Shown: piece after piece, positions 38,104-40,330 of the stretch
How the letters are laid out: each line of letters starts with the position of its first letter
How positions within the stretch are numbered: position 1 is the first letter of the stretch
Assembly: GCA_030065235.1 (NCBI GenBank)
Contig: JASJDC010000002.1
Coordinates: forward strand, 396,001-460,000
Direction of reading: 5' to 3'
DNA: 64,000 bases
DNA from: Alphaproteobacteria bacterium
Lineage (GTDB): Bacteria > Pseudomonadota > Alphaproteobacteria > UBA8366 > Aestuariispiraceae
The notes under the pieces: generated by a model
Seen by the model: only the letters and a program-made list of their open reading frames with translations
The model's database searches: none
What the model was told of the DNA's origin: nothing
Made by a program: the position numbers and the translations under genes

Positions 38104-38637
38104 CGTTCCCCCGTTTCGGCTCATCGGCCGCGCGTTCTTCATGACCGCCCATTCCTCATTACAATCCCCGGAGACCCCAATTTGCATACTGCATCCGGGA
38201 CCCTTACGCGGATTCGCACGTCAACCCAAATCATCCGAGCCCACAGTCCAGGCGCAACCCTATGCGCCCAAGGCAGTCACGGATATGCGCCGTAAGATCA
38301 AGAAGCCCACGCCTCTCAATCCCAACTCGCGACGACCATCGTCCATATCAAAGGGCGCGCCGCCCCTCAAATTCTTCTTTGTCCTAGGTCGGGATACCCC
38401 ATATCACGGGAGAACTTCAATGTCTAAACGCGCAATATATTGGAATACTTATGGGTTTTGGCGTTCCGCCTAGCTTGAGCGCCGGTCTGGAGCTTGCCGC
38501 GCCGCGACCCGCGCAGCCCGATTCAGGGGACGCGGCGGCGCGTGTTTTCGGCGGGCCAATTCGCCGGAATTTCTGGATTGCACGCTTGTCAGGCCGCATC
38601 GCATCTAGTACGACCCAGCGTCCCTCCTACAGGGTCG
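38104..38637. other. 534-base gap with no supported gene
   Basis: Between the lipoprotein gene and tRNA-Arg. The part around 38380-38460 is AT-rich compared with its surroundings. A 17-codon frame at 38420-38473 (MSKRAIYWNTYGFWRSA) has GGGAGAA upstream, but length and lack of context make it unsupported. No terminator, convincing tRNA promoter or known RNA family was recognised. The stretch just upstream of the tRNA (38590-38637) must contain its promoter, but no good -35/-10 pair stands out. Confidence 0.45.
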
Positions 38638-38714
38638 GCGCCCGTAGCTCAGTTGGATAGAGTGCTTGACTACGAATCAAGAGGTCGGGAGTTCGAATCT
38701 TCCCGGGCGCGCCA
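38638..38714 (+). tRNA. tRNA-Arg, anticodon ACG
   Basis: A complete 77-base cloverleaf with encoded CCA. Acceptor stem GCGCCCG pairs with CGGGCGC, discriminator G, then CCA at 38712-38714. D-arm AGCTCAGTTGGATAGAGT, anticodon stem CTTGA/TCAAG with loop CTACGAA (ACG), and T-arm with GTTCGAATC are all present. ACG is the expected inosine-modified arginine tRNA reading CGN codons. It is followed immediately by tandem repeats starting with its own 3' end. Confidence 0.97.
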
Positions 38715-38906
38715 ATCTCCCTTCGGTCGAATAGCTTGCCCGGATTTTAGGGTTCGGACTTCGTCCGCTCAGGTGCGCCAATCTCCCTTCGGTGGCATCG
38801 CTTCCGCGGTTTGTAGGGTTCGGACTTCGTCCGTTGGGGTGCGCCATTATCCCCTCATTCGAATAGCTTCCCTGGCCTATAGGGTCCGGACGTCGTCCGT
38901 TGGACG
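38709..38906 (+). repeat. Three 66-bp tandem repeats starting at the tRNA 3' terminus
   Basis: Units at 38709-38774, 38775-38840 and 38841-38906 each begin with GCGCCA, which for the first unit is the last six bases of tRNA-Arg. Units 1 and 2 then share ATCTCCCTTCGGT; all three end with a block around AGGGTTCGGAC-TTC-GTCCG. The block forms a hairpin CGGAC/GTCCG with a three-base loop (GTC in unit 3, where the stem is retained). The unit end looks like a decayed copy of the tRNA T-arm and acceptor 3' strand. Spacing is exactly 66 bases. A partial fourth start (GGGCCCTTCTCC) may follow at about 38906. Confidence 0.85.
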
Positions 38907-39040
38907 GGCCCTTCTCCTATAGTTTAAAAGTTCGTGGGCAGTCTCATGCGAGCGGTTTTGTTCCGCCATCGCAGTCCACCGCTTTCATGAATGAAACCGG
39001 TATGAAATTCTAGGTGACGACCATCGAAACGGGGAATGCG
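38907..39040. other. Gap between the repeat array and the exported-protein gene
   Basis: Together with the repeats this leaves about 326 bases without a protein gene. Here the sequence turns AT-richer (CTATAGTTTAAAAG) and then leads into the next gene. CTATAG and surrounding bases could be part of a promoter for the exported protein, but there is no matching -35. Nothing else was seen. Confidence 0.4.
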
Positions 39041-40330
39041 ATGACCGCCGCTTTCCGTATCAGTTTGATTGCGTTTGCCGCTTTGTTCTTCGGGGCGACG
39101 GCGTCTTCCGCACAAGATTGCGTGTTTGGCCATAGAGGGGATGCGCTGCGGCTGTCGGAGGCGCTGAACAGCCGGGATCATGTTCGGATTTCCGAGAGGG
39201 TGCGGGCGATCAACCCGCGTATGCGCGCGCCAATACCGGAAAAGCGAGAACCGTTAATCGAACCGGCGGAGGACGCCTTCAGCCTGGAGATAACGCCGTC
39301 GATGCGGCAGCGCGCCGTGCGCCTTTATCTTGACGCCGTGCGGAACGACAGTTGGTGGCTGCAAGACCCGACGCCAACGCCACCCGAAATCCCGCGGCCG
39401 CTGCGCCGTCCGGCTGAAATGATCCGCGGTCTTATCGCCGTGGCCCTGAGCTATCCGGATGCAAGGGCGGAAGCGCTGGACCTTGCCGCGGCCGCCGCCG
39501 ATTATCTCGTGGGCGCAAGCCGCGAGGCGGGCGTTCGCTATGCGCCTTTCCCATACTGGCGTAATAAACCCGGTCGGCTTGGCGAGTTGTCCGAACGGAT
39601 GGCGCGCGCGTTGGAAGCCTGCGGCGAGCTCGAGGCCAATATCCGGAACGGCTGGTTCACCGTCGCCGCTGTCCCGGAAGAATATTTTTTCGACACGGGA
39701 CTCGCCGGTGAAGCGTTGGCCAAACTCGCACGCTACGCACCGCAAGACCGCTACACCGCCTGGTTGAGCGCCGCTTCAGACTGGCTCGCGCAAAACCCGC
39801 TCTCGCCAAATTTCAACTACAACGCCTTTCCGGCGCAACTCCACGCCGCAACCTTCGTGCTGACCGGCGATGGGGCCGAACGAGAGCGGGCGATGGACCG
39901 ACTGACTTACGGCGTCATACCGGGCATGATCGCGCAAGGCGAAGACACCGGCCATTGGATCGACCCGCATAACGAGCGGCTCGCCTATCGCGCCATTATG
40001 GTGCGGTCGATGATCGAAACCAGGTTGGCGATTGAACGGGCGGGGCCTGGACCGCAGAGGGACGCGGCCCGCGACCTCGCATCCGCCATCGAGAGCGCGC
40101 TTGGCGCCATGGAAGGCGAAATGAGTGGCGCAGTCCCCATGGCGATCCTGCCGCGCATGATCGAAATCTACACCGGTATCGACGCGCTGGCCGAGAACGG
40201 AATTCTCATTCCCTTCAGCATGGAGGTTCGCGCCTCTTTCTTCGCCCTGGCCAAACAATATCTGGTTCAAAAGGGCCCTAGCGCGGGCGCGGGGACAGGG
40301 GTTTTCCTCGCCCTGTTGAACAAACGCTAG
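39041..40330 (+). CDS. Exported protein of unknown function, possibly (alpha/alpha)-barrel
   Basis: A 429-residue protein I do not recognise. The ATG at 39041 follows GGGGA at good distance and gives a clear signal peptide (residues 1-25, cleavage at ASSAQ). Residues 60-420 are mostly amphipathic helices with Trp/Tyr-rich loops such as DSWWLQDPTPTPPEIPRPLRR and FPYWRNKPGRLGELSERM, and helix pairs like TGLAGEALAKLARYAPQDRY and DRYTAWLSAASDWLAQN. This rhythm is typical of helical toroids in glycan-active enzymes and epimerases, but no catalytic motif was identified. It starts about 130 bases beyond the tRNA repeat array and converges with a solute-binding protein gene. Confidence 0.6.
   Translation: MTAAFRISLIAFAALFFGATASSAQDCVFGHRGDALRLSEALNSRDHVRISERVRAINPRMRAPIPEKREPLIEPAEDAFSLEITPSMRQRAVRLYLDAVRNDSWWLQDPTPTPPEIPRPLRRPAEMIRGLIAVALSYPDARAEALDLAAAAADYLVGASREAGVRYAPFPYWRNKPGRLGELSERMARALEACGELEANIRNGWFTVAAVPEEYFFDTGLAGEALAKLARYAPQDRYTAWLSAASDWLAQNPLSPNFNYNAFPAQLHAATFVLTGDGAERERAMDRLTYGVIPGMIAQGEDTGHWIDPHNERLAYRAIMVRSMIETRLAIERAGPGPQRDAARDLASAIESALGAMEGEMSGAVPMAILPRMIEIYTGIDALAENGILIPFSMEVRASFFALAKQYLVQKGPSAGAGTGVFLALLNKR

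Follow-up and report, generated by a model that had tools for sequence, protein, structure and literature searches.

The window analyzed here, a 64,000-nucleotide stretch of alphaproteobacterial DNA, carries on its forward strand a tRNA-Arg(ACG) gene with an encoded CCA end (38638..38714; called by ARAGORN and matched by Rfam RF00005 at 66.6 bits), directly followed by three tandem units of 66 bp. Counted from the base after CCA through the next GCGCCA, units 1 and 2 occupy 38715..38780 and 38781..38846 (+), while the diverged unit 3 (38847..38906, +) terminates in GGACGGGCCC instead of GCGCCA and has lost its tRNA 3' end copy. GCGCCA starts at 38709, 38775 and 38841, and the first of these is the tRNA's own 3' end, which closes at 38714. 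TRF reports the array as 38705-38903 with period 66, 3.0 copies, 0% indels and a score of 244; the runner-up among the 18 TRF rows of the window scores 57. The array is the window's strongest periodicity, with a lag-66 match of 106/132 compared with 73/132 at the best other place (lags 30-200). Over 66 bases, units 1 and 2 share 56 identities, and unit 3 shares 48 with either of them. Each unit holds a CGGAC/GTCCG hairpin, with loop TTC in units 1 (38755..38767, +) and 2 (38821..38833, +) and loop GTC in unit 3 (38887..38899, +). The positions, the period and the hairpins agree with the first-pass annotation, which had described the array from the letters alone. R1, a sequence-only profile model that we built from 17 units including these three, matches unit 1 at 38716-38780 (E 4.8e-16), unit 2 (E 1.8e-15) and unit 3 at 38847-38907 (E 5.9e-12).

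Rfam, applied to 38600-39020 at E up to 10, returned the tRNA alone, plus a minus-strand Plastid-ycf2 match lying over the tRNA. We rejected tandem tRNA genes as a description of the units, as both ARAGORN and Rfam score only the one tRNA. A protein-coding repeat was likewise discarded: a 142-aa ORF (38494-38922) spans the tRNA and the units, reading through because 66 is a multiple of three, but the units of relatives measure 63, 66, 67, 68, 69 and 70 bp, a spread that keeps no frame. A simple scan of 38450-39100 gave neither promoter-like nor terminator-like sites around the array. A sequence search of the own genome (G000) found no second array; the six matches besides the array itself include a best one of 22 bases (E 0.008) and another of 67 bases at 72% (E 0.37). 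One place in this genome (L032, G000:C2:377261-377282, minus strand) carries a lone GGGCGCGCCAATCTCCCTTCGGTC, which equals the tRNA-Arg end joined to the start of unit 1, and ARAGORN called no tRNA there. Nearby proteins of the window comprise transporter parts, a phosphoribosyltransferase, DUF4864, a chemotaxis receptor and three without a Pfam match. The gene adjoining the tRNA also lacks a Pfam match and was found beside 20 of the 34 tRNA loci tested, the own locus included. Units are present at three of those 20 loci (L001, L007 and L008), and at L003 of G057 they occur where nothing matches the adjoining gene.

Full units directly behind tRNAs were found in 13 Alphaproteobacteria genomes at 14 loci, with one to three units per locus. 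Seven loci belong to tRNA-Arg(ACG) (G000, G007, G011, G057, G425, G447 and G801), three to tRNA-Arg(CCG) (G002, G007 and G426), three to tRNA-Arg(TCT) (G174, G424 and G735) and one to tRNA-Leu(CAA) (G423). The tRNA and array together, searched as a query in 59 genomes, yielded three units behind tRNA-Arg(CCG) in G002 and, behind tRNA-Arg(ACG), two units in G057 and one each in G007 and G011. A pattern scan of genome contigs gave 78 stretches, in eight of which the match sits just behind an ARAGORN-called tRNA. L122 and L050 are among these eight. The others come from Marivibrio halodurans (L072 and L092, the ACG and CCG units of G007), a Robiginitomaculum MAG (L105, G425) with three units behind Arg ACG, the third cut short, a Rhodospirillales MAG (L112, G426) with two units behind Arg CCG, a Sphingomonadales MAG (L117, G423) with two units behind Leu CAA, the second cut short, and an Erythrobacter MAG (L123, G424) with a match behind Arg TCT. 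Sixteen stretches, L105 included, were inspected individually; L073 (G427) has a unit behind a tRNA fragment, and those other than L105 and L073 are apparent chance matches or, in Panacagrimonas, a different repeat. The latter, in Panacagrimonas perspica (L052, L066 and L084), is a palindromic repeat with AGCCCGGACGAAGTCCGGG at three places and is dissimilar to the unit. Of the eight, L050 (CP051228.1) is titled Mesoflavibacter yet bears the unit sequence of G011, a genome from the window's own family, and its label is probably wrong.

The R1 model gave 24 matches at E up to 0.01 in the ten carrier genomes whose units it was built from, and 19 of these lie directly behind tRNAs. The other five are one behind the tRNA fragment of G427, one 1.5 kb downstream of a unit-bearing tRNA in G007, and three weak ones elsewhere. 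Across the class, 3 of 385 sampled genomes were positive under strict filters, adding G174 with two units behind tRNA-Arg(TCT). The order of G423 gave 3 positives among 246 genomes, with G447 behind tRNA-Arg(ACG) and a remnant without a tRNA in G525 as new cases. In the genus of G424 (100 genomes; 30 loci and 4 regions inspected, the rest judged by alignment end alone) we found a full unit in G735 and diverged ones in G730 and G725, and the family of G425 (119 genomes) added G801 to G425 and G427. The exact core GTTCGGACTTCGTCC is present in 6 of the 385 class genomes, and the four other than G000 and G057 hold no clear unit. Decayed or truncated units also occur among relatives, and in G010 and G439 just the first bases of a unit remain. 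A palindromic repeat at L210 (G426:C68:11966-12025) with GTTCGGACTTCGTCCGAAC and GGCGCCATTCC..GGAATGGCG is partly related to the unit. The first-pass annotation had made its reading depend on period and stem recurring in close relatives. Within the own family this recurrence is limited, as only 4 of 14 genomes have units, but homologues in other families and orders are present, so the array is not a mere accident.

Units begin right after a CCA, and most of them finish by repeating the tRNA-Arg 3' end, exactly or nearly so; the tRNA itself therefore stays unchanged whether a unit is added or removed. The sole clean empty site lies at tRNA-Arg(ACG) within one genus: the G002 flank abuts CCA, while the same flank in G007 follows a 69-bp unit ending in GGGGCGCGCCA, and the two flanks align from the first post-CCA base. 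Given this exact site and the tRNA-end copies that bound the unit, comparison of these genomes indicates that units are gained or lost as exact cassettes. The site can be read equally as a gain or as a loss by recombination between short direct repeats. The ACG and CCG loci of G007 carry units that are identical except at one of 69 bases, yet the sequences beyond these units diverge at once. Exact neighboring copies make up two of the three units in both G425 and G002. The nearest relative of each unit is a unit of the same genome in G002, G057 and G007, and this also applies to units 1 and 2 of the array; the rule fails for some units of G174 and G426.

The claim that every unit restarts with the tRNA 3' end fared unevenly. 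Within the own genome alone it is weak: the last 12 bases of the tRNA match at best 9/12 within 300 bases downstream, a value also reached by trailers of other tRNAs among the 31 compared, and the end of unit 3 is lost. Relatives put the copy on firmer ground, with the exact end GGGGCGCGCCA in 10 of the 22 units compared, and 7 of 14 host tRNAs ending in CGGGCGCGCCA. Likeness to a tRNA extends beyond the end, in that the bodies of all eight units tested align to the tRNA-Arg(ACG) of G057 above nearly all shuffles (p 0.005-0.015). However, two units also aligned to a tRNA-Phe-like control at p 0.015 and 0.030. In a mostly-Arg control set covering seven tRNA classes, Arg-ACG came out on top for 9 of 13 units; against the 31 own-genome tRNAs, the own ACG ranks 2 to 30 of 32 and the G057 ACG 1 to 24, with the best mean. 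We therefore did not adopt the idea that the whole unit is a decayed tRNA-Arg, which exceeds shuffles yet is non-specific, and leave it as suggestive.

We tallied the hairpin on 21 and then on 24 distinct rows. The smaller set was without G801, the truncated third unit of G425 and the G525 remnant, which the larger one added; still outside it are the second, diverged CCG unit of G007 (other spacing), L210 and identical copies. In the 24 rows, 85.0% of cells are paired, and three of the five pairs show both-sided changes (1/500 shuffles as high). Five cells carry such changes compared with a shuffled mean of 0.6 (0/500 as high), and the covariation score is 0.172 versus 0.096 in shuffles (0/500 as high); further pair types number 5 versus 4.1, which 152/500 shuffles reach. 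The 21-row count gave the same three pairs and five cells, and slid controls gave at most one pair. Only two genomes contribute compensatory changes, G174 through two units of a single array and G725, so the events are few. In 13 of 24 rows the outermost pair is open. All four inner pairs hold in 21 rows, the exceptions being G735 and the last, cut-short units of G423 and G425. Because many rows were found through a hairpin-containing pattern, pairs tend to look invariant. When RNAalifold was run on 17 units, none of the 7 pairs it gave had both-sided changes; since the hairpin was picked from the sequences afterwards, the 21- and 24-row tests concern a chosen helix. Altogether the covariance check that the first-pass annotation proposed for the stem turns up compensatory changes, in the two genomes named, and shows the hairpin to be under some constraint. 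A second, closing stem failed the pairing test, and the 222 bases behind the own tRNA fold no better than shuffles (z 0.36).

In the family of G425, 3' parts of tRNA-Arg(ACG), about 46-60 nt long, occur apart from the intact gene at L342, L345, L346, L348, L353 and L351 (G844, G870, G425, G427, G805 and G818), most starting in or near the anticodon loop and lying 7 to 14 kb off or on other contigs. We read these as traces of integrative elements, which would make tRNA-Arg(ACG) a recurrent integration site in this family; as another origin for copies of the tRNA end, such integrations are the strongest candidate. In G427 the displaced fragment precedes a unit, and thus the unit was either present when the element arrived or moved along with it. 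Other inserts exist at these genes as well. At about 1580-1810 of L004 (G003:C2:367192-370277), tRNA-Arg(ACG) is followed by two different repeats of ~100 bp and then by a worn tRNA 3' end, CTTCAAATCTTCCCGGGTGCGCATT. At L293 (G714), a different 136-bp insert behind tRNA-Arg(TCT) likewise ends in GGGCGCGCCA, and the sequence past it is similar to what directly follows the tRNA in L280. Pfam scans of nine window proteins and of six ORFs at the G007 locus detected no integrase, and no mobility enzyme or carrier was found among nearby proteins and ORFs, viral contigs, phages and plasmids. Viral origin was discarded after 53 viral contigs with the exact 15-base core displayed nothing unit-like around the match, and the two-unit stretch of G057, the one query used, had no match in plasmids and phages at E 0.001.

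Among known systems, the E. coli tyrT/rtT repeats reiterate a tRNA 3' end with a repeat of about 178 bp. The array shares this design in that its tandem units also restart at the tRNA 3' end, a likeness that is weak in the own genome and firmer through relatives. It differs in unit length (66 bp) and in the tRNAs concerned, and the RtT family model has no match in 38600-39020 at E up to 10. The comparison holds for design only, as family membership fails on the model, and the proposal of an independent case of the rtT design stands in this form. Integrative elements in tRNA genes carry attL/attR sites with a segment of identity to the tRNA 3' part. The units are similar in that they duplicate the tRNA 3' end without disrupting the tRNA and have an exact empty site (one clean site, with loss an equal reading). 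In contrast, they come without a detected integrase and without room for cargo, at 63-70 bp rather than kilobases, and their copied end is about 11 nt as opposed to 46-60 nt at the neighboring integrations. REP elements are palindromic and high-copy, whereas the array's units number 1-3 per locus and are bound to tRNA ends. To our knowledge, leuZ-3'ETS is not known as a repeat. Of these systems, rtT is described as an RNA that tRNA processing releases from the transcript of a tRNA operon (PMC4986893), leuZ-3'ETS as an RNase E-cut tRNA trailer that acts as a sponge, from work in Salmonella (PMC5222698), and Br-REP1/2 of Bradyrhizobium as repetitive non-coding elements of an alphaproteobacterium (PMC5082802). 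The array, a putative trailer, would share with leuZ-3'ETS the feature of a trailer RNA of a tRNA transcript that persists (PMC5222698), and its units are, like those described for Br-REP (PMC5082802), repetitive, non-coding and alphaproteobacterial. The literature consulted, mostly titles and abstract openings, holds no account of the repeat.

Several explanations have to be weighed against this evidence. The units might function as trailer RNA, freed from the tRNA precursor as stable small RNAs that serve as a sponge, an RNase decoy or a modulator of the stringent response, as has been reported of rtT and leuZ-3'ETS. This is unlikely, though the likeliest of the rivals: the array sits directly behind the tRNA with no terminator-like site in the scanned interval, hairpin covariation points to selection on structure, and the RNase E-cut sponge described in PMC5222698 offers a precedent. 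Against it stand the sparse positives (3/385 in the class, 4/14 in the family), the decayed or truncated units in relatives, the shuffle-like folding behind the own tRNA and an Rfam result on the array strand that is the tRNA alone. Somewhat more doubtful is the scar of an integrative element, where the 3' part of tRNA-Arg served as the attachment site, a copy was displaced downstream, and deletion of the element left a short scar with a decaying tRNA end that was then duplicated in tandem. The recurrent integrations in six genomes of the G425 family, the G427 fragment followed by a unit, the G714 insert with its similar end and the alignment of unit bodies to tRNA-Arg(ACG) are all consistent with it; but a single sequence family with a covarying hairpin, spread across orders and several tRNAs, is not what unrelated scars would leave, and the tRNA likeness is non-specific.

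An accidental local tandem duplication of the tRNA end and trailer, with no further meaning, is highly improbable. The diverged unit 3 with its lost end does resemble decay, copy number varies and most relatives have no units, but homologous units occur in further genera, families and orders and follow other tRNAs as well, which together with the exact empty site and the compensatory changes argues against it; judging from these homologues the reading is largely refuted. Slippage at the tRNA end, proposed in the first-pass annotation as the origin, is insufficient alone because distant genomes carry one and the same unit family behind different tRNAs, and its insertion or deletion is exact relative to the empty site; alongside recombination, it is kept as a possible route of multiplication. 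Least credible is a model in which RNase P cuts every unit as an acceptor-plus-T-arm minihelix, the GGGGCG that precedes CCA being paired to a C-rich strand inside the unit. Single units, that of G002 and that of Erythrobacter, do form strong stems, and 0/300 shuffled 5' strands pair as well there. However, the own partner is no better than those of other units (p 0.61 for 20 units, 0.36 for 18 units), within-unit covariation is absent, and for the three units of the array, 40, 38 and 170 of 300 shuffles do equally well. The pairing test rules out the minihelix or RNase P substrate as the main reading.

We favor, at about an even chance, that the array represents three copies of a non-coding structured cassette that resides at arginine-tRNA 3' ends in scattered Alphaproteobacteria, where it would be transcribed as a trailer, trimmed off and, as the comparisons suggest, able to move. 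Loci with the adjoining gene of the own tRNA exist both with and without units, which we count for this cassette. Gain of a unit would be a rare event in which it is copied to the 3' end of another tRNA-Arg, and the ACG and CCG loci of Marivibrio halodurans may be such a case. They would then multiply or vanish through recombination or slippage between the direct repeats of tRNA ends, be transcribed as the tRNA's trailer and be trimmed away. Selection, either for RNA processing or for the copying step, would maintain the hairpin, which perhaps derives from or imitates a T-arm before the CCA. Because both the tRNA end and the start of the trailer are restored, the host is probably unaffected by such a cassette. 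A bolder version, which we regard as possible but rather improbable, holds that the units are mobile cassettes, about 68 bp long and without genes of their own, which home to arginine-tRNA 3' ends across Alphaproteobacteria, keep the tRNA working through the copy of its end, depend on the hairpin for copying and are moved by some host or foreign enzyme.

Overall, the first-pass interpretation is partly supported. The array adds a second example of the design known from E. coli rtT, without kinship by the family model and accompanied by cross-order homologues, an exact empty site and covariation. With it, the question of whether repeats at tRNA ends are RNA genes or tiny insertions becomes testable in a named strain, such as Marivibrio halodurans.
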